From a virus: a stretch of 64,000 nt of DNA. This document shows, one piece after another, positions 5,757 through 55,211 of this stretch. The notes beneath the pieces were generated by a model. The model worked only from the letters and a program-made list of their open reading frames with translations. It was not told the origin of the DNA and searched no databases. Both the position numbers and the translations under genes were made by a program. The first letter of the stretch is position 1; each line of letters opens with the position of its first letter. The DNA lies in IMG/VR virus record IMGVR_UViG_3300037557_000128, positions 1-64,000 of that record; one strand, 5' to 3'.

Positions 5757-6182
5757 TTAAGAAATTTTGATTTCTTGAGGTTTATCTTCTTCGGGTACAA
5801 TCCTTTCCAAAGACACACTCAAAATCCCATTCTTCATATCTGCACCTTTAACGACTATATCGTCTGCAAGTGTGAATGTTCTTTTGAATGAACGTGATGC
5901 AAGTCCTTTATGGACATACTCAAGTTCCTCTCCATCCTCTTGTTTACCTTCAATTGCAAGAATCTCTTTCTCTTTTGAGATTGAAATATCTTTCTTGGTA
6001 AATCCAGCTACTGCAAGTTCGATTGCAAAGTTTTCTGCATCGTGTTTTACAATATTGTAAGGTGGATAATTTACATTAGAGTGCGTGTCTGCACGTTCTA
6101 ATAGTTTTAGGTGTCGGTCAAAACCGATTGCGAATGGAAAATCCGTTGTGAATCTTCCGAAGACATCATCGAAGTGTGTCAT
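5757..6182 (-). CDS. hsp20: Small heat-shock protein Hsp20
   Basis: A 141-residue alpha-crystallin-domain chaperone of the IbpA type, common in T4-like marine phages. The N-terminus (FDDVFGRF, PFAIGFDR) is followed by the alpha-crystallin domain: PPYNIVKHDAENFAIELAVAGF, then SRSFKRTFTLADDI and the conserved GxLxxxL element as NGILSVSLERI. An IxI-like tail closes as EIKIS. It should hold unfolded proteins, perhaps during virion assembly. The start at 6182 has AGGAG 6 nt upstream; that site can pair with a TTGCT just upstream, suggesting heat-controlled translation. A late promoter lies about 305 nt upstream. Confidence 0.93.
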   Translation of the reverse strand: MTHFDDVFGRFTTDFPFAIGFDRHLKLLERADTHSNVNYPPYNIVKHDAENFAIELAVAGFTKKDISISKEKEILAIEGKQEDGEELEYVHKGLASRSFKRTFTLADDIVVKGADMKNGILSVSLERIVPEEDKPQEIKIS

Positions 6183-6188
6183 AGTTTT

Positions 6189-6205
6189 CTCCTTATTTAA
6201 GCAAG
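6189..6205 (-). promoter_or_regulatory. ROSE-like RNA thermometer hairpin over the hsp20 Shine-Dalgarno
   Basis: In the mRNA, UUGCU (6200-6204) can pair with AGGAG (6189-6193) across a 6-nt AU-rich loop, giving U.G, U-A, G.G, C-G and U-A; the loop-closing U and A bases can extend it by one pair. This UUGCU/AGGA pairing with an internal G.G is the defining feature of ROSE thermometers, which sit in front of small heat-shock genes in proteobacteria. Pairing is weak enough to melt with mild heat. Assignment is by pattern only. Confidence 0.6.
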
Positions 6206-6487
6206 TTAATGTTCTAGTCCTCTTATGAGCAACTAGGCGTATGCCCTCTTTAATCCGAGTTATCAGTCCAGTCTCTTATTCAGATTCTTTCCCGAAGCTC
6301 TTTTGAAGATTAAAGAGTTCATACTAAAGTGGAAACTCAGCACGACCTGTTAGTCTCCTAGTTTGACCTGCCCTAACTCAAACATGGAAAGGGGTTGGGT
6401 CAAGTTGTGGGTTTCTTTTCCGTACGGTAAATTAATACTAGTACTTCTTATCTACCCTTGCGAATCAAATAAATGATTCGCAAATAG
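6206..6487 (-). other. Long structured 5' leader of hsp20, non-coding
   Basis: About 280 bases without a plausible gene. In the transcript the first bases fold into a perfect 10-bp hairpin (6458-6483, TTGCGAATCA/TGATTCGCAA, loop TTTATT). Downstream there is a GC-richer imperfect hairpin around 6360-6400 (GACCT.../...GGGTC). No tRNA signature is present. It looks like a regulatory leader or the source of a small RNA. Confidence 0.5.
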
Positions 6488-6495
6488 TATTTATA
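6488..6495 (-). promoter_or_regulatory. Late promoter (TATAAATACTATT) for hsp20
   Basis: Minus-strand TATAAATA followed by CTATT, a full match to the T4 late -10 consensus recognised by gp55. The start site would fall at the base of the 5' hairpin of the hsp20 leader. Confidence 0.8.
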
Positions 6496-6533
6496 CCATT
6501 TATAAGCCTATTATAAGGTTTTTTTTAAATATT

Positions 6534-8420
6534 TCAAGGGGTTTTCTTTAATTTTCTTAATTCTTTATTAATTAGTGGTGCATATATCTTAACTGGAATC
6601 TCTTTTCCTTTAACATTTATCTCGTCAAGATACTGCCATTCACAATCAACCTGTTTCTTTGTGAACTCTGACATTAGAATAGGTGTATCATATGTTCTAG
6701 TTTGCACTTCAAGTCGAGCTGCAAGGTTAACTGCATCTCCGACAACTGAATAATCGAATCGTTCTTCTGACCCCATATTGCCCACGATACACTGACCAGT
6801 GTTAATTCCAGTGCCTATGACTACTGGTGGTAAATCTAATCCTTCTCTTTCTAACTCTACATTCATTTGTTCTGTTAACAGTTCTATTTCTATTGCAGAA
6901 TCTAAAGCCCTTTGTGCGTGGTCAGGACAATCTAAAGGAGCTCCCCACCATGCCATCAAACAGTCGCCCATATACTTATCAATGGTTCCACCATTTGCGA
7001 GTACTATTTTTGACATACCGTCTAGGAATCTATTGATTAATAACACTAGACCTTCAGGGTCGTCATTCTTCATATAAGCTTCGCTTATAGGGGTGAACCC
7101 AACTATATCTGCAAATAAGAATGAAAGTTCCTTTCTATCTCCACCTAATTTCAATTTTTCGGGGTGTTTTTGCAGTTCTTCAATCATGTCAGGCGATAAA
7201 TATTTTTGGAACTGCTTCTTTATTTGTTGCTTTTCTTGAAAGGTAACATAGTATTTGTTGAAAGATGCATGACCAAACACAATCAAGGAGGCCAAAGATG
7301 AAAAGAAGGTATCGAAAAGAACGAGACTTGAAGACCAAATATAGAAACTCCCACCCACCTGAAGTACTACGAGTCCTAGAGAAAATGTCCCCGAAAGAGC
7401 TGTGGGAAGCTTATAAACCATTACCAACACAATTAATAGAACTGACAGAAGAAGAACAATTTCTACGAATTCAAGAAAGTAGGATTGCTTTATTTGAATT
7501 CCTGTCAAGGCGGTTTGTATCAGATTCGCTTGTACTTCGTGAGGATACATTGTACCCATTGGGGTTGAAACTGGATTGTTCCATCCTTCAGCGGTTACCC
7601 CAAACACAAGAATAGCGTTTTCAGGTAATTCATCAGTGAAGGAATAACGTTTAAACTTGTTCCAATAACTTATCATTAAATCACCTTGAGGTGTTGTGGA
7701 TATGGGTTGTTGTCTTCCGACTCTGACCCATTCTACTCCAACCTCTTCAGTGACTTTCATTTGGTAAGATTTTTCGTCATTAAAAGCACGTAACACTTCA
7801 ATTGCAAGTGAGGGATATATTTGTCCGTTCGCTTGCATGAGTAATGGTGCAGAACGTATGGTTCCATCGAAGTTTGGAGTACCCGAAATACTAGGAGTTG
7901 CAGTAGTTACCCCTACTCCATAGGTGTTTCCCTCTAGTACAGGAATGGGGCTGAGCACCCCTGGCGTCCCCCACACTGCGTTTTTAGCGTCTCCTGACCC
8001 CAAAGTACTAGTTCCGACAAAGGGAGATGACCCTTTTTGGGTCTGAATTGTGGGTGCTGACGATAAAATGGACAATCTATTGACCAAAGCAGTCGCAAAT
8101 TCCTCGTCTCCACCGAATCTATCGACCTCTGAGAACACTTGCGTGAACACATAAGTGTTAGACCAGTGTGATTCCAGTAGTTTATCTGCGTATATTTTGC
8201 GTGGGAATGGTAATTGTCCGAACTCTTCTACTGACTTTTCGTCAATATCGACCAAAACAATTTCGGGAAGTCCTGATTCGGAATCGTACTCTTGAACACT
8301 ATGTGTGCTATGTAAGTAGTCAAACCACGACCATGAGATGTTCTCTATGAAGTATGGGTTCCAAATTTTAAGTCCAAATAATAACCCTATCGTGACTAAT
8401 ACGGTTTTCCAAGAGTACAT
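6534..8420 (-). CDS. CHASE2-domain class III adenylate/guanylate cyclase, membrane-bound
   Basis: A 628-residue membrane receptor cyclase. Order: N-terminal membrane anchor (residues ~5-22); a periplasmic CHASE2 sensor (~40-305, with EIVLVDIDEKSVEEFGQLPFPR and DGTIRSAPLL); three membrane helices (~315-395); a short linker; and a class III cyclase domain (~430-610). The cyclase keeps the metal aspartates in FADIVGFTP and YMGDCLMAW, and the transition-state Asn/Arg in YSVVGDAVNLAARLE, so it should be active, making cAMP (or cGMP). CHASE2 cyclases often sit beside FecR proteins in bacteria, and a FecR gene lies three genes upstream here. It starts in a TAATG overlap at the end of the curli-like operon. 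I know of few phage receptor cyclases. Confidence 0.92.
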   Translation of the reverse strand: MYSWKTVLVTIGLLFGLKIWNPYFIENISWSWFDYLHSTHSVQEYDSESGLPEIVLVDIDEKSVEEFGQLPFPRKIYADKLLESHWSNTYVFTQVFSEVDRFGGDEEFATALVNRLSILSSAPTIQTQKGSSPFVGTSTLGSGDAKNAVWGTPGVLSPIPVLEGNTYGVGVTTATPSISGTPNFDGTIRSAPLLMQANGQIYPSLAIEVLRAFNDEKSYQMKVTEEVGVEWVRVGRQQPISTTPQGDLMISYWNKFKRYSFTDELPENAILVFGVTAEGWNNPVSTPMGTMYPHEVQANLIQTALTGIQIKQSYFLEFVEIVLLLSVLLIVLVMVYKLPTALSGTFSLGLVVLQVGGSFYIWSSSLVLFDTFFSSLASLIVFGHASFNKYYVTFQEKQQIKKQFQKYLSPDMIEELQKHPEKLKLGGDRKELSFLFADIVGFTPISEAYMKNDDPEGLVLLINRFLDGMSKIVLANGGTIDKYMGDCLMAWWGAPLDCPDHAQRALDSAIEIELLTEQMNVELEREGLDLPPVVIGTGINTGQCIVGNMGSEERFDYSVVGDAVNLAARLEVQTRTYDTPILMSEFTKKQVDCEWQYLDEINVKGKEIPVKIYAPLINKELRKLKKTP

Positions 8421-8899: not shown

Positions 8900-9736
8900 T
8901 TAGTTTTGCGTGACACTTACTGTACAGCCACCTGATGTTTGACAATTTTGAGACAACGTATAATTTTGAGTTGTATTGGAATGTTGTGAAATATTAAGTG
9001 TGGTTGGATAATTTCCGTTTATGGTAATGTTTGAGTTGTGTTCACCATTTCCGTCTTGTAAGTAATCAACGGTATTACCATCGTTATTAATGGTTAAATA
9101 AAATTCTTTTGTACCATCTGCTTTTTGTTTACCGAAAACAGAATTGTTATCACCATAAAGATAGATTTTTGCTTTATGACCATCACAAGCACCAGTTGCA
9201 CAATTTCTTTGTTGTCCTACAACTGTATTATTATTACCGTGAATATCTACAGTAACCCAATGACCACCACCTTCAGTGTTATCCTTTGCCCAAGATGTAT
9301 CAGTTCTACTTGAAATTTCAAATCCTTGAGCCCACCAAAGCTTATTATTTGTTCCATATGAAATATGAAACTGAATATCATTAGTGTTACAATCATCACC
9401 TTTTGTACAGTTCTGCCAAAGTTTTACATCTTGGTCATCGTGGTCTATATCACCACCCCAACCTGCACCTGATCCCCATGTAACAATATCATCTGCCCAA
9501 CCTATTTCTTGATTGTTTCCAACTTGATATATATCTATTGAAGAATCATCAATATCACCTATAGAAAAGAATACACGATTATCATAACCTTCCTGCGTGA
9601 TACTGAGGTCAAGATTAGTTGAGGCTGTGACTTGATTTATGGCAATAGTGTTATCATCACCACCAAATGCCTTAAATGATAATCCTAGACAAAGGAGTGC
9701 CACTGCACCTGTTAATAACTTCGCACCTAAATCCAT
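8900..9736 (-). CDS. Secreted curlin-like repeat protein (second copy)
   Basis: About 278 residues from the ATG at 9736; an upstream TTG at 9757 is less likely. A signal peptide (LLTGAVALLCLGLSFKAFG) is followed by strand-turn repeats rich in N, D, G and Q, such as NTIAINQVTAST, LDLSITQEGYDNRV, SIDIYQVGNNQ and HGNNNTVVGQQ, which resemble curlin Nx5QxGxxN units. Cysteine pairs (CTKGDDC, CATGAC, CQTSGGC) recur at loops and suggest disulfides after export. It probably is a CsgG/CsgF-exported beta-solenoid or amyloid-like subunit. It differs from E. coli CsgA in length and spacing, so the curlin label rests on pattern and neighbours. Confidence 0.7.
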   Translation of the reverse strand: MDLGAKLLTGAVALLCLGLSFKAFGGDDNTIAINQVTASTNLDLSITQEGYDNRVFFSIGDIDDSSIDIYQVGNNQEIGWADDIVTWGSGAGWGGDIDHDDQDVKLWQNCTKGDDCNTNDIQFHISYGTNNKLWWAQGFEISSRTDTSWAKDNTEGGGHWVTVDIHGNNNTVVGQQRNCATGACDGHKAKIYLYGDNNSVFGKQKADGTKEFYLTINNDGNTVDYLQDGNGEHNSNITINGNYPTTLNISQHSNTTQNYTLSQNCQTSGGCTVSVTQN

Positions 9737-9737
9737 A

Positions 9738-9887
9738 TTAACCACACAACCATACAAATAATAGAGTAAGGACTACTCCTTCTGCGAATGAAATCCACAT
9801 CATCCAATAATCGTCTAGTCTCAGAGCTTTTTGAAATCCAAAGATTTGAGTTTCATGCCATGAGCGGAACTTTTCTAGTATATTCAT
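9738..9887 (-). CDS. 49-residue single-span membrane protein
   Basis: A short gene found by translating between the FecR gene and the second curlin-like gene. AGGAG precedes the ATG at 9887 by 6 nt and the TAA ends 2 nt before the next ATG. The N-terminus is amphipathic (NILEKFRSWHETQIFGFQKAL), then a transmembrane helix (MWISFAEGVVLTLLFVWL). It fits the operon without a gap, which supports it being real. Function unknown. Confidence 0.65.
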   Translation of the reverse strand: MNILEKFRSWHETQIFGFQKALRLDDYWMMWISFAEGVVLTLLFVWLCG

Positions 9888-9895
9888 ATATTCTC

Positions 9896-11029
9896 CTAGT
9901 TTGTTTGTGTAATGGTAATATTTATAGACGAACCATCACCCACCACGATATGTGACTCTTTTTCGTCTGTTATAGTTCTAATATCTGCTTGTGCAAACAT
10001 GGGAATCCTGATTGAAATAATTCCATTCACTTCCCTGTATAACCATATTTGACCAAGACCCTTATCTATAATTGTATTATATTGAGAGTCTTTGTCGAAA
10101 CCTGCAGAAGTACCCGATAATCGAACACTTCCGAATTTTGCACGTTCTCTATCTATACCCACTTTTTTGTCAATGTCTAATACAATATCGAGTAAATCTT
10201 GTAAAAAATCAATGTCGAGTAAATCTCTATCTAGCTCTGTATATTCCAGCTCATCATCTTCAAAGTAGTCCGTTTCCAAATCATTGAACTCTAAGAAGTC
10301 TACATCTAGAATATTATTCGCATCATTTTCTCCACCACCTGATTCTTCTGAAACTTGGTCAGAAACCTCATCAGGTGGACTGACAATGAACATATTATCA
10401 ATCATTCCAATGTTTACACCATTAACCGTTACTGGTTTTGTTGGTGAATCATCATAAGTCGACACCATAGTTGCTTGGTATGCTTCATTCATAGTTACTG
10501 AACCACCTGCATTTGATACTATAATGATTCCTGAAGGTGAACCCCATTTATCTGGCAAAAGCATAACAAGTGAGCGTCCTAATTCATCAATACTTGTGGT
10601 GAAATCTGTGCCTCTGACTGCAATTGTGGCAGTAGGTGTCCTAATTTCAATATTTGCTTTTTTAATTTTTCCACCAAATCCCGAAGCAAATCGAGCGGTG
10701 CCTTGTGCCATTCTTAATGACATTTTTGATAGACTTGGGTCGGGGTCATAATAAACCTCGTCTATCCAAACTTTAGAATGTTCTGTTAATGAAAGTTCTT
10801 CTTCGCCTTCGAACTTTATTTTCATTCTCCCATTCTGAGTTTGTGCAGTATCGTACATTAATACATCAGGATTTTCTGATGCCAATAGGACGGTGTTATC
10901 ACCGTCTCTTGTAAGACCTGCGTAACCTTTTTCCTCAATGATTTCACCAATCGAGTCAGCATTAACCAACCCGACTGATAAAATACTAAGAATCGTTATC
11001 GTCTTTTTGAACGATGTCAATATTTCCAT
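9896..11029 (-). CDS. FecR-domain secreted protein
   Basis: 377 residues. A signal peptide (ITILSILSVGLVNA) is followed by a FecR-type beta domain at ~25-170: ENPDVLMYD, LTEHSKVWIDEVYYD, the hallmark MAQGTARFASG, and TPTATIAVRGTDF. A very acidic linker (~225-285, rich in DLLDIDFL) follows, and then a C-terminal beta region ending SINITITQTN, which resembles a curlin-type strand. FecR proteins are periplasmic regulators or surface-associated modules and are often encoded next to CHASE2 cyclases. It may link the secreted fibre to the cyclase sensor. It overlaps the preceding curlin-like gene by 44 nt. Confidence 0.82.
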   Translation of the reverse strand: MEILTSFKKTITILSILSVGLVNADSIGEIIEEKGYAGLTRDGDNTVLLASENPDVLMYDTAQTQNGRMKIKFEGEEELSLTEHSKVWIDEVYYDPDPSLSKMSLRMAQGTARFASGFGGKIKKANIEIRTPTATIAVRGTDFTTSIDELGRSLVMLLPDKWGSPSGIIIVSNAGGSVTMNEAYQATMVSTYDDSPTKPVTVNGVNIGMIDNMFIVSPPDEVSDQVSEESGGGENDANNILDVDFLEFNDLETDYFEDDELEYTELDRDLLDIDFLQDLLDIVLDIDKKVGIDRERAKFGSVRLSGTSAGFDKDSQYNTIIDKGLGQIWLYREVNGIISIRIPMFAQADIRTITDEKESHIVVGDGSSINITITQTN

Positions 11030-11720
11030 TAGTAGTCACGAAAGTTACGTCAATAATACCACTACAAGATTGACCACTTGGACAACCTGTATCTGAACCT
11101 GATTTCTGAATGATGTCTATATCATTTCCTGAACCAGTTAAGACTGCAGTAATACTATTATCGGTTGCATCTAATTGATTGGTGTTAATGTCGTTTGTTG
11201 AACCTGTAACAGTCCAGTTCCAAACAGCATTATCTGAGTTAACTTTAGTTGTAAATATATTACTTGAACCACCAACTACTAAATCGTAGTTTAAGTATTC
11301 AGCTGAAGCTGCGTCACCAATATCAATATTCCATGTATTAGAATCACCAGTAACAGCACTTAACATATTTAAACTGTCAGCACTATTTTGACCAATGTTC
11401 CAGTCCATTGAGTTTGAATTTCCAGTGAAGGTAAGGTTTATCGTTGCTGAGTCAGCAATCATAGGCCCAAATAATTTGTTAGTGTCTCCATATTGGATAA
11501 GTGTAAAATTATTCGATGCACCAGTCAAAACCATGTCTATGGAAGTGCCTGCGAAGTTATCGCCGCCAACTTTGTTTCCATAACCTTTCTGCGTGAAATT
11601 CAATACAAGTGCTGTACCTGATTGATTTAACCAAATTTCGTTATCGTCTGCTCCTGCGAATACTGTGGCAGGTAGTAGACCTAATGTTAACATAATGAGT
11701 GAAATAAATTTATTCTTCAT
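10986..11720 (-). CDS. Secreted curlin-like protein (CsgA/B-like)
   Basis: 244 residues. A clear signal peptide (KFISLIMLTLGLLPATVFA) is followed by imperfect strand-turn repeats: NEIWLNQSGTA, LVLNFTQKGYGNKV, NFTLIQYGDTNKLF, DIDIIQKSGSD and NIDIVQKDDNDS. These N/Q-ladder repeats match the curlin pattern and begin just after the predicted cleavage site. It lies between csgG and the FecR gene, so it is the most likely main export substrate. The middle repeats are degenerate (TGSTNDINTNQLD), so the fibre may differ from bacterial curli. It starts inside the csgG 3' end (11-nt overlap). Confidence 0.75.
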   Translation of the reverse strand: MKNKFISLIMLTLGLLPATVFAGADDNEIWLNQSGTALVLNFTQKGYGNKVGGDNFAGTSIDMVLTGASNNFTLIQYGDTNKLFGPMIADSATINLTFTGNSNSMDWNIGQNSADSLNMLSAVTGDSNTWNIDIGDAASAEYLNYDLVVGGSSNIFTTKVNSDNAVWNWTVTGSTNDINTNQLDATDNSITAVLTGSGNDIDIIQKSGSDTGCPSGQSCSGIIDVTFVTTNGNIDIVQKDDNDS

Positions 11721-12642
11721 TTGTTTTTTCCTCTGTAACTAAGACGATTTCATTTTCATCTAAAAAGTCTGACACTTCCTCTTTTATTTTTGATTCAGTT
11801 ATCGGCCATTTTATTTTCCAAAATCCTCTTTCATCACCTTGATAGATTAATTCTAGGACGGCAAGTTCGATTGCAGAACGAGTCGCTTTCGTAACCCCTT
11901 CATTAGTTGCTACGCCATCCTCAATTTCCACTAATTTTGTGTCCATGTCCACAAAACGGAATACATCGTACCCACCACCAGTCGATAAAATAGTCTTGGT
12001 AGTTTGTACATTAAGTAAAATTTCACCAGTAAGTGTTGATATTCCTCTCAAACTTACCGTGACCACATCTCTTCTATATTGGCTTGAAGCACCGATACCT
12101 AAGTATCTTGCGCCTCGGCCACCCGATTCAATGTTAGTATCATAACCAACAATCCCACCGTCAAGTAGGATTCCTGCGAACAAGAGAGGTTGGATACCCG
12201 TAGGTGAATCCTCATTACCTTCTTGATTCGCAAAATCTTCTCTCGCAGAACGAACAATTTGCCTTTCTCTTACAAGTGCATCTAAACTTGTACGTTCTAC
12301 TACTCTAAACCATTTTCCTTGTCCTGCAGTTTTAAGTGCATCAATAAGAAATGATTCACCACCCTGTGTCACTGCAGTTGAGAAAGATGCAATTCCATCT
12401 TTGCTCTTACGTTGTCCTGTTTTATCTAGGAAACCGTAAACTGCAACAATAGGCATATTTTCTGCAGGTGGTAATTCCAACAATTCCATATGTGTAGGAA
12501 GTTTAACTGATTCTGCAGGTTCGATACAAGTTCCTATCTTGTTCATAATTGCAGTACTGCAAGTGTCATTGACACTTGGTACGCTTGCACACCCAGTCGT
12601 GAGCAAGACCACTATCAGTCCTACAAACCCTAACGTCTTCAT
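11710..12642 (-). CDS. csgG: CsgG-type curli secretion channel lipoprotein
   Basis: 310 residues, homologous across its length to CsgG (277 residues in E. coli), the outer-membrane nonameric channel of type VIII secretion. The lipoprotein signal ends at C18 (VVLLTTGC). Conserved blocks include IVAVYGFLDKTGQ, SFSTAVTQGGESFLIDAL, WFRVVERTSLDALVRERQI, the strand region SGGRGARYLGIGASSQY, LTGEILLNVQTTKTILS and FRFVDMD. At the constriction E. coli Y51/N55/F56 align with D82/S86/F87, so the aromatic ring is kept at F only. About 30 extra residues follow the lipid cysteine. It sits directly after csgF, with no csgE or csgD. Confidence 0.93.
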   Translation of the reverse strand: MKTLGFVGLIVVLLTTGCASVPSVNDTCSTAIMNKIGTCIEPAESVKLPTHMELLELPPAENMPIVAVYGFLDKTGQRKSKDGIASFSTAVTQGGESFLIDALKTAGQGKWFRVVERTSLDALVRERQIVRSAREDFANQEGNEDSPTGIQPLLFAGILLDGGIVGYDTNIESGGRGARYLGIGASSQYRRDVVTVSLRGISTLTGEILLNVQTTKTILSTGGGYDVFRFVDMDTKLVEIEDGVATNEGVTKATRSAIELAVLELIYQGDERGFWKIKWPITESKIKEEVSDFLDENEIVLVTEEKTNEE

Positions 12643-39818: not shown

Positions 39819-41810
39819 TTAAACTGCTGAATAGATTTCTTCAAACTGAACACCACTTCTAGCAGCGACAAAGTTCAAAGTTATATAGTTGATTGAACGA
39901 GCAGGTTTAACGAAGATAGAACATACAAATTCGTTTCTATCCATAACTGAATCAGTGTTGTTTGTTTCATCACAAACTACTGAGAAGTCAATCAAACCTC
40001 TTCTGTTCTTCACATCTCTTAAGAAAGGTTCTATCGCAGCTCTGAACTGTGCTCTTGTGAATGCATCGTTGTATTCAAAGAGTTGTGCTTGTGCAGCTGT
40101 TGATATTGCTTTCTCTAGGACTATGAATAACCTTCTTACATTAATTCTATCAAATGCAGAAGGACTTGTTAATGCAGTCTTATCCCCAAATAGGACTGTG
40201 CCTTGGCCTGGGAATGTTGTGACTGGGTTAATTCTTGCACGATAAAGGTCATCTCTTGAACCCTGTTTAGGGTTGTATGCAACCTTAGTGATTCCAAGAT
40301 ATTGTCCTCTTGAGAAACCTGCAGGGGAAACCCACGCATCTCTCATAAGGTCAGCTCTTGCCATAATACCTGCTGTGTGTCCGTTTGCAGGAATCCAACA
40401 GTACCTATCGTTAAATCTATCGTATTGGTAGACCCAAGTTGAGTCTAGTACTGCAAATGAACTTGAAGTTGCAGTGTTGCAGTCTGCTAATACGTTTGTT
40501 GTTTGTGTTGATTCATTAGAAACATTAACCACTGATGCACGTCTTGGACTTGCGATTACCATACAATCTTTTCTCTTTTCTGCAATTAAGATTGCTTGGT
40601 TAACTTGTGTTGTCCAATCTGCAAGAATATCTTGGTCTGTTCCTGAACCGTTATCAGTTCTTGTTGAACCAACGATTAGGAAACTTATATCGACTGAATT
40701 TGCATCTTCGAAATGGTCTGCCCATGCAGTTTGTTTTTCTCCTGCAGTAGCACTTCTTCCGTCAACTCCACCACTTAGTGTTGAATTTTCAGGGCCTGAA
40801 GGTCTACCGAAGGCTGCTCCTGCAGAACCAGCGTGTGTTTTCTCACCAGTTGCACTTGCGTGTGTTCCTGTTGAGTGACTTGCCCAGTATACATAGTCTG
40901 ATTTTACTTCTAATACGTCTTTGTAGTAGTTTGAAGCACCGTGAGCGTCTTTACCGTCTGAAGCACATGATAAGAAACCAAATGTTTCTAATACAGTGTT
41001 TGCAGTACCTGTAAATGTTCCGTCTTCGTCTATAACTACAACGTGAATTTCGTCATCGGAACCACCAGCAGCTGTTGATGTTCCTGATTTGCCTGGAGCT
41101 TTACTGAATAAACCGTAGTGTTCCCAATATCTATCGATATTAGCACCGTTTGCAACTGCAGTTGTTAATCCAACTCCAGCAGGTTGATCCAATGCTTCGA
41201 TAGTGATTGTTGTTGCTGAAGGAAGAGCTAACACTCTATATTGAGTGGTGTGCGTTTGTGGAAACGTGATTATATCTCTTAATGTGAATACGTTCGAGGC
41301 TGTAACTGTAATTAAAGTTTGTCCAACTGCTTCTGCACCACCTGTAGTGGTTACTGTATTGTTGAAGTATGCATCACTAGATGCACAAGTCGAAACTTTT
41401 AATGAATTACCTTTAGTCCCTGCGTATTTTGAAATGAATTTTCCAACAGTTCCTGCCTGTCCACCTGCTTTATATGTGTTAACATAGTCATCATGATGTT
41501 TAAGTAAAGATGCCCCACCACTTGCGTTAGCAGATTTTAAACCATTTGAGTTTATTCTTACTACTCTGAGTGATGAACCGTACTTTAGGAAAGATTCCGC
41601 TGTGTAAAAATTCTCTGCACCTGCATCTGTATTTACAGGTTGACCAAATGTGTCTACTAAGCCCTTTGAATCTGAAACTGTTATTACTTCATCAACAGGG
41701 CCCCATTGAAATGAACCAGCGAATGCACCCGTAGTTGTAGAAACTGCTGGTACAACATTCGTTAAGTCAATCTCGTTGACCTGTACGCCTGGTGATACTT
41801 GAAATGCCAT
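39819..41810 (-). CDS. 18: Tail sheath protein gp18
   Basis: 663 residues (T4 gp18 is 659). Contractile sheath. N-terminal FQVSPGVQVNEIDLTNVVP and the conserved C-terminal assembly domain (WVSPAGFSRGQYLG, LYRARINPVTTFPGQGTVLFG, FDRINVRRLFIVLEKAIS) are intact; the middle (about 110-330) is the variable surface domain. AGGAG precedes the ATG. Confidence 0.97.
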   Translation of the reverse strand: MAFQVSPGVQVNEIDLTNVVPAVSTTTGAFAGSFQWGPVDEVITVSDSKGLVDTFGQPVNTDAGAENFYTAESFLKYGSSLRVVRINSNGLKSANASGGASLLKHHDDYVNTYKAGGQAGTVGKFISKYAGTKGNSLKVSTCASSDAYFNNTVTTTGGAEAVGQTLITVTASNVFTLRDIITFPQTHTTQYRVLALPSATTITIEALDQPAGVGLTTAVANGANIDRYWEHYGLFSKAPGKSGTSTAAGGSDDEIHVVVIDEDGTFTGTANTVLETFGFLSCASDGKDAHGASNYYKDVLEVKSDYVYWASHSTGTHASATGEKTHAGSAGAAFGRPSGPENSTLSGGVDGRSATAGEKQTAWADHFEDANSVDISFLIVGSTRTDNGSGTDQDILADWTTQVNQAILIAEKRKDCMVIASPRRASVVNVSNESTQTTNVLADCNTATSSSFAVLDSTWVYQYDRFNDRYCWIPANGHTAGIMARADLMRDAWVSPAGFSRGQYLGITKVAYNPKQGSRDDLYRARINPVTTFPGQGTVLFGDKTALTSPSAFDRINVRRLFIVLEKAISTAAQAQLFEYNDAFTRAQFRAAIEPFLRDVKNRRGLIDFSVVCDETNNTDSVMDRNEFVCSIFVKPARSINYITLNFVAARSGVQFEEIYSAV

Positions 41811-41851
41811 ACTTTTCTCCTGTTAATGTAAAAAGTTATTGTTTACTGTTT

Positions 41852-41859
41852 TATTTATA
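41852..41859 (-). promoter_or_regulatory. Late promoter TATAAATA before gp18
   Basis: Minus-strand TATAAATAAAACAG about 41 nt before the gp18 ATG, with a normal AGGAG leader. Confidence 0.75.
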
Positions 41860-41900
41860 ACAATACAGTATCTAACACACCGATTTACATTCTCTATTAT

Positions 41901-52899: not shown

Positions 52900-53760
52900 T
52901 TAACTTGTAACTGGTGTAGCAGGCCATTGTTGAGATAGTGTACTATCCCACCTAATGACTGGTGTTCTACCTTGTCGGGCATAAGTTCCAGGCGTCCTAT
53001 GTTGATATGTGAACGGTGTCTGACCTTGTCTTGCATATGTGCCAGGCGTTCTATGTTGATAAGTCGTTGGTGTTTGACCTTGTCTAGCATATGTACTTGG
53101 TGTTCTATGTTGATAGGTAAATGGTGTTTGACCTTGTCTCGCATATGTGCCAGGCGTTCTATGTTGATATGTAGTAGGTGTTTGACCTTGTCTAGCATAT
53201 GTGCCAGGCTGTCTGTTTTGATATGTAGTAGGTGTCTGACCTTGTCTAGCATACGTTCCTGGCTGCCTATTACTATATGTAAATGGAGTCTGTCCTTGTC
53301 TCGCATATGTTGTAGGTTGACTAGCAATATATGGATATGGATTTTGTCTATTCGCAATATAAGGTTGTTGTCCAGCTACAGGATTCCTATAGGTAAATGG
53401 ACTCCTATTATTATATGTGAACGGACTCTGACTATTACTAGGTTGTCTTGCGTTCGCAGGATACCTTGCGTTATATGTGAATGGACTCTGACTATTACTA
53501 GGAGACTGTCCATTAGCAGGATACCTTGCGTTATATGTGAACGGTTGTCTCGCATTACTAGGAGACTGAGCATTCGCAGGATACCTTGCGTTATAGGTAT
53601 ACGGAGTCCTTGCGTTATAGGTAAATGGACTCTGACTATTACTAGGAGACTGTCCATTAGCAGGATACCTTGCGTTATAAGTTCCAGGCTGCCTAGCTGA
53701 AGCAATGGCAGGTTGCTGGGTATTAGCGATTACTGGTTGTTGTGCTTGTCCGATTGCCAT
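52900..53760 (-). CDS. Pro/Tyr/Gln-rich repeat fibre-like protein
   Basis: 286 residues built almost wholly of short repeats. The first half uses units such as QSPFTYNARYPANA; the second half is an 18-residue double unit RQPGTYARQGQTPTTYQH repeated about six times. Every unit has a Pro about two or three residues before a Tyr, and Arg/Gln between. No signal peptide, no hydrophobic core; an extended fibre or adhesive is likely. It starts exactly at the stop of the Hint-domain fibre gene (1-nt overlap) with the same repeat type. The short C-terminal end (IRWDSTLSQQWPATP) may be a tip. Confidence 0.7.
   Translation of the reverse strand: MAIGQAQQPVIANTQQPAIASARQPGTYNARYPANGQSPSNSQSPFTYNARTPYTYNARYPANAQSPSNARQPFTYNARYPANGQSPSNSQSPFTYNARYPANARQPSNSQSPFTYNNRSPFTYRNPVAGQQPYIANRQNPYPYIASQPTTYARQGQTPFTYSNRQPGTYARQGQTPTTYQNRQPGTYARQGQTPTTYQHRTPGTYARQGQTPFTYQHRTPSTYARQGQTPTTYQHRTPGTYARQGQTPFTYQHRTPGTYARQGRTPVIRWDSTLSQQWPATPVTS
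52970..53700 (-). repeat. Coding tandem repeats in the repeat fibre gene
   Basis: DNA-level repeats of about 54 bp (two 27-bp half-units, e.g. CAAACACC and CATATG(C/T) spaced regularly) from 52970 to about 53330, and a looser 45-63 bp repeat from 53400 to 53700. Synonymous differences between copies show they are old or actively shuffled by recombination. Confidence 0.75.
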
Positions 53761-55211
53761 TATCTTTTATTCCCCCCGCCGTTATGAACTAACACACCTT
53801 CTGTAAAGTATGTTTTAGTGTGTTCAACGGAAGTTAAATGATAGACTGTAGCAGTTCCATTTTCTGTTATGGAGTTAACTGTTACCCCTGATTGACCAAC
53901 TGTAAAGACTTCGTCTCCTACTGCGAGTTCTCCACTTAGTTCTATTCCCCAATCAACGTCTTTTAACTCAATATCACACTCTTCCTGATTCGCATATTTC
54001 CAACCTGAATCAGTGTGTATTGGGTGTCCACCTGTTACACCTAGTGTTTTTCCATTTGATAATTCTACGTTCCAAACTTTTATGTTTTCTCTTGGAACCA
54101 TGACCTCAGTAACATTCTGAGGCATAAGTTTACCATGACTAAAGTCAAATGTCATTACTGCATCTCCAACATTAACGTTTTCTATGTTCATATGATTGTT
54201 ATCAGCCATCAAAATTTGTGTTCCAGCAATGAAACACCCACCACCACCGCCACCATACGGATAAGTGTATGGATTACGATATGCATACGAAACTGGTGTC
54301 CTCTGTTGAAAGGTAAATGGATTCTGACTGTTTGCTATATAAGGAACTCTGTATGTAAATGGGTTTCTATATGTTCCAGGCTGTCTTGCATTAGCAATGT
54401 ATGGTTGTCTTGCGTTTGCGATATAAGGAACCCTGTATGTAAATGGGTTTCTATATGTGAATGGATTTCTTGCATTAGCAATATAAGGAACCCTATATGT
54501 AAATGGGTTTCTGTATGTTCCAGGCTGTCTTGCGTTTGCGATATAAGGAACTCTGTATGTAAATGGGTGTCTGTATGTTCCAGGCTGTCTTGCGTTTGCG
54601 ATATAAGGTTGCTGTGCGCTTACAGGACTTCTATAGGTAAATGGATTCCTGTTTTGATATGTACTAGGTGTCTGACCTTGTCTTGCATATGTTGTAGGTT
54701 GACTAGCAATATACGGATAAGGTTGTTGTGCATTAGCAATATATGGTGTTTGATTGCTCGCAATATACGGATAAGGATTTTGTCTATTCGCAATATATGG
54801 AGTCTGATTACTTGCTATATACGGGTAAGGGTTTTGTCTATTCGCAATACTTGGGGTCTGATTGCTTGCTATATACGGGTAAGGTTGTTGAGCGTTCGCA
54901 ATACTTGGAGCTTGAGCATTTGCTATATAAGGGTACGGATTTTGTCTATTCGCAATACTTGGGGTCTGACTATTAGCAATGTATGGATAAGGTTGTTGTG
55001 CGTTCGCAATACTTGGAGTCTGACTATTAGCAATGTATGGATAAGGTTGTTGAACTGAAGTCTGACCCGAAGCGTTATTCCAAGTGGAAGGCCCAGTCTT
55101 TACATAAACCTGTTCTGCAGCTTTCCAAGTCGTTCCACCCGTCTTTACCCACGCACCTTGTGTGGCATTCCAACCTGTAGGTGTTTTGACGTGTTGTTTT
55201 CCTGTTGCCAT
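53760..55211 (-). CDS. Repeat fibre protein with C-terminal Hint (intein-like) domain
   Basis: 483 residues. Residues 1-50 form a fibre-base domain with two WKAAEQVYVKTG-like units. Residues 55-315 are Pro/Tyr repeats (YPYIANSQTPSIANAQQ; ARQPGTYRNPFTYRV). A poly-Gly stretch leads to a Hint domain from C326: CFIAGTQILMADNNHMNIEN (block A), TGGHPIHT (block B, 393-400) and a final VLVHNGG (HN at 476-477). Only six residues follow HN and the next residue is Gly, not Cys/Ser/Thr, so self-cleavage rather than splicing is expected, as in bacterial intein-like domains. Behind a TATAAATA box: late structural gene. Confidence 0.85.
   Translation of the reverse strand: MATGKQHVKTPTGWNATQGAWVKTGGTTWKAAEQVYVKTGPSTWNNASGQTSVQQPYPYIANSQTPSIANAQQPYPYIANSQTPSIANRQNPYPYIANAQAPSIANAQQPYPYIASNQTPSIANRQNPYPYIASNQTPYIANRQNPYPYIASNQTPYIANAQQPYPYIASQPTTYARQGQTPSTYQNRNPFTYRSPVSAQQPYIANARQPGTYRHPFTYRVPYIANARQPGTYRNPFTYRVPYIANARNPFTYRNPFTYRVPYIANARQPYIANARQPGTYRNPFTYRVPYIANSQNPFTFQQRTPVSYAYRNPYTYPYGGGGGGCFIAGTQILMADNNHMNIENVNVGDAVMTFDFSHGKLMPQNVTEVMVPRENIKVWNVELSNGKTLGVTGGHPIHTDSGWKYANQEECDIELKDVDWGIELSGELAVGDEVFTVGQSGVTVNSITENGTATVYHLTSVEHTKTYFTEGVLVHNGGGNKR
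54262..55060 (-). repeat. Coding tandem repeats in the Hint fibre gene
   Basis: Units of about 54 bp encoding alternating 8- and 10-residue motifs (SQTPSIAN / AQQPYPYIAN), then units encoding ARQPGTYRNPFTYRVPYIAN. The same motif type recurs at 52970-53700 and 62700-63250, so the three genes probably exchange repeats. Confidence 0.75.

Follow-up and report, generated by a model that had tools for sequence, protein, structure and literature searches.

Introduction

The leaders of the Pseudomonas ibpA genes are 61–62 nt long and form two hairpins, with the residues C36, U37, U38, a bulged G39, C40 and U41 (PMC3669281). They are repressive at 25 °C and become open at 42 °C, with hairpin 1 remaining closed, removal of G39 locks them, and their function as thermometers has been demonstrated by reporter, toeprint and probing experiments (PMC3669281). 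The RNA thermometers described in phages can be counted on one hand (PMC11182007). Those found in the accessible literature are lambda cIII, SPbeta blyA and Caudoviricetes sigma70 (PMC4166951, PMC10586365, PMC11182007); the first switches between two folds and the other two are of the fourU type, none being a ROSE element and none residing on a chaperone gene. The cyanobacterial hsp17 thermometer (PMC4477652) resembles the phage element described below in belonging to a small heat-shock gene and in hiding the Shine–Dalgarno (SD) sequence in a hairpin. It is, however, a single hairpin, whereas cyanophages carry the proteobacterial two-hairpin ROSE form.

The small heat-shock gene hsp20 belongs to the core genes of T4-like cyanophages (PMC3037559), and we found it in about 500 phage records. 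A search of the literature accessible without subscription returned no previous description of a phage ROSE element, and two papers on phage Hsp20 make no mention of a thermometer. Here, we analyse the hsp20 leader in a 64,000-nt stretch of viral DNA (the window). We conclude that it contains a real and conserved ROSE-type element, well supported structurally, and consider it likely, from its sequence and by analogy with characterised leaders, that the phage hsp20 5′ UTR houses a short two-hairpin RNA thermometer of this type.

The hsp20 leader in the window

The window derives from a 79-kb viral record and belongs to a marine myovirus of the T4-like type, whose terminase most resembles that of phage C48C1 (56%) and, after it, those of cyanomyoviruses. 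The nearest GenBank relative of its Hsp20 is that of the Methylophilales phage Melnitz, at 47% identity. The hsp20 gene begins with an ATG at 6182–6180 on the minus strand and is flanked by genes for a CHASE2-adenylate cyclase and a peroxiredoxin-like protein. The 351 nt upstream of hsp20 hold, in order, a sigma70-like promoter, a T4-type late promoter, a strong hairpin and a long leader, and the last 60 nt of this leader contain the element of interest. The features, all on the minus strand, are as follows.

6510–6537, minus strand: sigma70-like promoter, TTGAAA-16-TATAAT, assigned from sequence only
6488–6495, minus strand: T4-type late promoter TATAAATA, recognised by its sequence
6240–6483, minus strand: extra leader between the late promoter and the ROSE element, with a strong hairpin and the motif CUUCAAAAGAGCUUCGG near 6303
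6236–6189, minus strand: two-hairpin element upstream of hsp20, in the last 60 nt of the leader
6214–6236, minus strand: hairpin 1, CUAGUU-[G6230 bulged]-CUC-AUAA-GAG-GACUAG, supported by leader counts and pair changes
6189–6205, minus strand: hairpin 2, putative thermosensor, CUU-[G6202 bulged]-CUU, loop AAAU, AAG-GAG, from sequence and comparison
6200–6204, minus strand: ROSE motif UUGCU, the anti-SD arm, as read in the sequence
6177–6238, minus strand: full-length match to ROSE_3 (RF02523), whose end extends across the AUG (21.9 bits, E 0.024)
5757–6182, minus strand: hsp20, small heat-shock protein of 141 aa (Pfam HSP20 PF00011, E 3.4e-18), the gene that the element would control

The late promoter lies some 310 nt upstream of hsp20, and the stretch 6150–6487 folds with a z of −3.96. 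Immediately after this promoter is a near-perfect hairpin, UUGCGAAUCA/UUGAUUCGCAA, at 6483–6458 (minus strand), which is predicted to sit at or near the 5′ end of the late mRNA. The motif near 6303 (minus strand) is an instance of CUU[ACG]AAAAGAGCU(U)CGG, of which the 500 nt upstream of hsp20 hold 66 sense-strand copies across 36 loci, often in pairs (for example at −116/−81 in L264, −134/−72 in L275 and −106/−76 in L272, relative to hsp20). It is confined to hsp20 leaders, with none elsewhere in those 36 loci, and is possibly a second cis RNA domain absent from Rfam.

Other parts of the window also drew our attention. The phage gene directly upstream of hsp20, at 6534–8420, encodes a CHASE2-domain adenylate/guanylate cyclase. 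The region 8900–12642 holds a CsgG gene together with genes for a protein with a FecR domain and for two secreted repeat proteins rich in Asn/Gln, which resemble curlins and are without a Pfam match; csgA and csgB have been reported absent from the curli loci of Melnitz and pelagimyophages (PMC9004378). At 53760–55211, a repetitive protein with QPYPYIANSQTPSIAN repeats has a C-terminal CFIAGTQILMADN...VHN, which resembles a Hint/intein-type self-processing domain.

The earlier note, made from the sequence, had placed UUGCU just upstream of AGGAG, and both are found, at 6204–6200 and 6193–6189 (minus strand), immediately ahead of the hsp20 ATG. Pairing of the SD by UUGCU also stands, but comparison favours, over the register put forward (U·G, U-A, G·G, C-G, U-A), one in which G6202 is bulged. 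In this register, 6205–6199 pairs with 6194–6189 across the loop AAAU (6198–6195), through C6205-G6189, U6204-A6190, U6203·G6191, C6201-G6192, U6200-A6193 and U6199-A6194. It is favoured because, in relatives, C6205/G6189 changes to A-U and G-C, U6203/G6191 to C-G and U6199/A6194 to A-U.

Occurrence in other phages

IMG/VR was scanned with the window Hsp20 and five other phage Hsp20s, giving loci L001–L080 and L095–L330. Hairpin 2 was generalised to the pattern NNN-G-CU-loop-AG-N′N′N′, required to be in place, and sought in unique 70-nt leaders. It is present in 171 of 181 unique viral hsp20 leaders, compared with 0.8% of shuffles, and hairpin 1 in 176 of 188 compared with 1.2%. Among SD-bearing leaders of other open reading frames in the same loci, the hairpin 2 pattern occurs in 2 of 308, one of which is the window's own hsp20 (L081); with this removed, the control frequency is about 1 in 307. 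Several of the leaders without the pattern have a miscalled start or carry a compensated variant. Real exceptions to the ROSE motif are found in L112–L119, deep relatives of pelagimyophages with the arm UGUCU. Here, the anti-SD arm UUAACUGUCU replaces the ROSE motif, yet it is complementary to AGGAGGUUAA.

The hsp20 genes read in GenBank phages all have the hairpin (28/28), either exactly or as a compensated variant, with an exact U(U/C)GCU in 26. The variants are those of S-TIM5 (ACGCU; CCAC-G-CUU/AAG-GUGG) and the jumbo phage Callisto (UUGCG; UUGC/GGAG). The phages bearing the element include Kyanoviridae on Synechococcus, Prochlorococcus, SAR11 and Methylophilales, the pelagiphages HTVC103P and HTVC115P (54 kb), which are outside the Kyanoviridae, and jumbo phages of Agrobacterium and Pseudomonas. 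In S-SRM01, S-CAM3 and S-T4 (L093, L413 and L425), the element and SD precede an ATG that differs from the annotated start and, from these sequences, the hsp20 start codons of all three appear to be misannotated.

Covariation within the element

An initial MAFFT alignment, of 38 leaders, put the arms of hairpin 1 in the wrong place and was excluded from counting. In a gap-poor alignment of 13 phage leaders (A5), 100% of cells are paired and two-sided changes are seen in six of the eight hairpin 1 pairs. The covariance model derived from it, R1, scores 71.9 bits (E 4e-18) in the window, where the next match reaches 14.8 bits. Over 100 loci (427 kb), R1 recovers 97 of 100 phage hsp20 leaders, and its 94 matches at E ≤ 0.014 are all hsp20 leaders. 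On whole phage genomes, it usually gives a single strong match, the hsp20 leader; an off-target exception in HTVC008M (111728–111770, E 1.4e-4) lacks the GCU motif and was rejected as a ROSE element. A weak second match in the window, at 41808–41866 before another gene, is without the ROSE motif and was likewise set aside.

A larger alignment of 96 distinct sequences (A6), which was fitted to the model and hence leans towards it, has 98.1% of cells paired, compared with 78.1% after shuffling, and a covariation score of 0.551, compared with 0.169; neither value was reached in 500 shuffles, and slid controls scored 0.03–0.10. Two-sided changes affect all eight modelled pairs of hairpin 1 and two of the six of hairpin 2, namely the lower pair (C-G to A-U) and the top pair (U-A to A-U), while the inner U·G pair is C-G in 23 sequences. 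Three of the six hairpin 2 pairs are invariant in A6, partly because the SD is itself constrained. RNAalifold recovers the same 14 pairs.

When the changes were mapped onto a tree of 140 Hsp20 protein sequences, the hairpin 2 pairs were seen to have changed repeatedly yet remained paired: the lower pair between C-G and A-U twice and between C-G and U·G five times, the inner pair between U·G and C-G eight times, and the top pair between U-A and A-U five times. S-CAM4 adds a change of the lower pair from C-G to G-C. The bulged G of hairpin 2 is conserved in nearly all leaders while its neighbours covary. The compensatory changes that the earlier note had proposed to look for in relatives are, thus, plentiful in A5, A6 and the tree.

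Relationship to ROSE families and bacterial leaders

At the gathering thresholds of Rfam, no family matches anywhere in the window. With permissive filters, ROSE_3 (RF02523) is the best of 4227 Rfam families on 6150–6560; with fast filters, a ROSE_3 scan of the entire record overlooked the hsp20 site, which a more permissive scan detected. The covariance-model search suggested in the earlier note thus finds ROSE_3 at the exact place and over its full length, at 21.9 bits, below the curated cut-off of 43 bits (65 bits for ROSE_2). Related phages score higher with ROSE_3, at 34.1 bits for Melnitz, 26.8 for C48C1 and 29.2 for MED4-213, as do related loci (L067 37.6, L050 32.5, L213 38.2, L210 37.4, L228 32.2, L229 28.6 and L252 24.8), and ROSE_2 matches the leader of cyanophage S-N03 at 26.2 bits. 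All ROSE matches in phages fall on hsp20 leaders, and none of the phage leaders tried reaches the ROSE cut-offs, the best standing at 38.2 bits. Formal membership of RF02523 as the family is now drawn is excluded by these scores, although the architecture is the same: the order of the hairpins, a bulged G in both and the distance to the AUG are shared, and the alignment is full length. A fourU thermometer is ruled out by the anti-SD arm, which is CUUGCUU.

The phage element and the Pseudomonas ibpA leaders have in common the two hairpins, the pairing of U(U/C)GCU with the SD, the lower C-G clamp, the bulged G39, the C40-G and U41-A pairs, a free AUG and the type of gene. They differ in that most T4-like phage members have a T4-type late promoter rather than a sigma32 promoter, that the window carries 250 nt of extra leader, and that the upper G-C clamp pair is A-U in most phages.

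Bacterial genomes were scanned with the Melnitz Hsp20 as the query, an alignment of 12 proteins having proved too diverse. In genomes of bacterial species with related Hsp20s, a YYGCY motif is at the right place in 76 of 80 loci. R1 finds 22 of these 80 leaders at E < 1, all before hsp20; the best are from SAR11 (44.2, 37.6 and 33.8 bits), and sphingomonads and Saccharospirillum are also represented. The SAR11 (Pelagibacterales) leaders have the same short two-hairpin form, scoring 30–44 bits with R1, but precede bacterial genes and are without the T4 late promoter. Some of these bacterial records have phage-type hsp20 leaders. L399 (Nonlabens xiamenensis) is nearly identical to cyanophage P-TIM40, and the others are in a Rhodobacteraceae bin (L331–L332) and a Neomarinimicrobiota MAG (L344); L331, L332 and L344 are probably phage contigs, and L399 is probably contamination or a phage contig.

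Judged by sequence, the phage element, that of the cyanophages included, is of the proteobacterial ROSE type. The earlier reading of the hsp20 leader as ROSE-like is borne out by the ROSE model matches and the compensatory changes, and the phage elements constitute a new viral branch of the known ROSE type.

Folding energies

In the window, ViennaRNA gives hairpin 2 a weak energy of −0.3 to −0.5 kcal/mol at 37 °C, which by itself is no better than that of shuffles, and favours a rival register over it. The case for the element, therefore, rests on comparison and not on single-sequence energy. For Melnitz and two SAR11 leaders, the SD is predicted by nearest-neighbour energies to be open. In the window, the calculated probability that the SD is open rises from 0.001 at 4 °C to 0.016 at 25 °C, 0.096 at 37 °C and 0.17 at 42 °C, and removal of the bulged G in silico lowers the energy of hairpin 2 at 37 °C from −0.3 kcal/mol to −3.7 kcal/mol. 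These modelled energies and accessibilities point only weakly to thermal opening. Back-pairing of codons 2–5 to the ROSE arm, as an anti-anti-SD, was considered and discarded, as it is not enriched (10 observed, about 6 expected).

Mechanism and alternative roles

By analogy with the bacterial leaders, the phage ROSE-type element is very probably a working thermometer. Hairpin 1 would serve as a stable scaffold, while in hairpin 2 the U(U/C)GCU arm would pair with the SD around the bulged G, the closed form hindering 30S binding. Warming, or another stress that opens the hairpin, would free the SD, so that Hsp20 could be made, presumably to the benefit of the phage, from mRNA that the infection has already produced; the main source of this mRNA in T4-like phages would be the late promoter just upstream of the element. 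Where T4-like relatives have the motif TATAAATA, it is in most of them located 64–71 nt ahead of the ATG and immediately 5′ of hairpin 1, and the late mRNA should, as a consequence, keep both hairpins, the element itself forming its 5′ UTR. The phage switch may act at a lower temperature than its bacterial counterpart because the upper G-C clamp is mostly U-A. The temperature-tuned chaperone synthesis during infection proposed in the earlier note is, in our judgement, strongly suggested by the likeness to the ROSE family.

A counterpoint to the thermometer reading is that virulent marine phages seldom meet sharp heat shocks within one infection. With the sea temperature constant during infection, aggregation is an attractive cue, and the element might be mainly a site of Hsp20 self-repression that senses aggregation rather than temperature: free Hsp20 oligomers would bind the leader and block translation, and unfolded clients would titrate Hsp20, so that more is made. 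Escherichia coli IbpA represses its own mRNA in this manner through its ROSE 5′ UTR, for which it requires R93, an aromatic residue at position 34 and positive charges at R97/K98, the K98A substitution abolishing repression (PMC10474464). When these residues are mapped by spacing and bacterial alignment columns, phage Hsp20s retain Arg at the R93 position in 194 of 203 cases, an aromatic at the Y34 position in all 203 and Arg or Lys at the R97 position in 168, but Lys at the K98 position in only 41. Moreover, conservation of R93 may reflect chaperone structure, and binding of Hsp20 to phage leaders is putative. As the main role of the element, self-repression seems unlikely to us, though it deserves serious consideration. 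It can coexist with a thermometer, and aggregation might be sensed alone or alongside temperature.

Ribosome-binding-site hairpins are used for timing in T4-like phages, and many relatives have a late promoter upstream of hsp20; the SD might on this precedent be sequestered in the long early transcripts and exposed in late ones whose start lies within the hairpin. The usual position of the late promoter, upstream of hairpin 1, leaves both hairpins in the late transcripts, and the element is also kept by HTVC103P and HTVC115P, with their small genomes outside the Kyanoviridae. Since timing would also leave the bulged G and the likeness to bacterial ROSE elements unexplained, we regard it as very improbable.

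Least credible of all is the idea that the conserved stretch acts as DNA, for instance as a Pho box, or is no more than a ribosome-binding site whose pairing is fortuitous. In a published table, ATTCAAACTCGCTTAAATA, a sequence before S-PM2 hsp20 that includes the 5′ arm of the hairpin, is entered as a putative Pho box, but PhoB binding and a low-phosphate response of that gene were both negative (PMC10976474). Compensatory changes maintain the RNA pairing and control genes are without the hairpin.

Significance

The ROSE-type thermometer is, thus, the reading that we prefer. It replaces the published and unconfirmed Pho-box prediction at S-PM2 hsp20, and the element corrects the hsp20 start codons in three GenBank phages. 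We would also float, with some diffidence, the idea that marine tailed phages, T4-like cyanophages among them, share a viral ROSE branch in which late-phase Hsp20 depends on both temperature and virion-assembly aggregation, the latter acting through Hsp20–leader binding. This phage thermometer type sits on a chaperone gene, and it is probable that these viruses sense temperature or protein damage by RNA. Isolated phage–host pairs are available for testing hsp20 function in phages. If the element is functional, the mRNA of abundant ocean viruses would read the temperature of the sea directly, and warming could alter the outcome of infection through a single hairpin.
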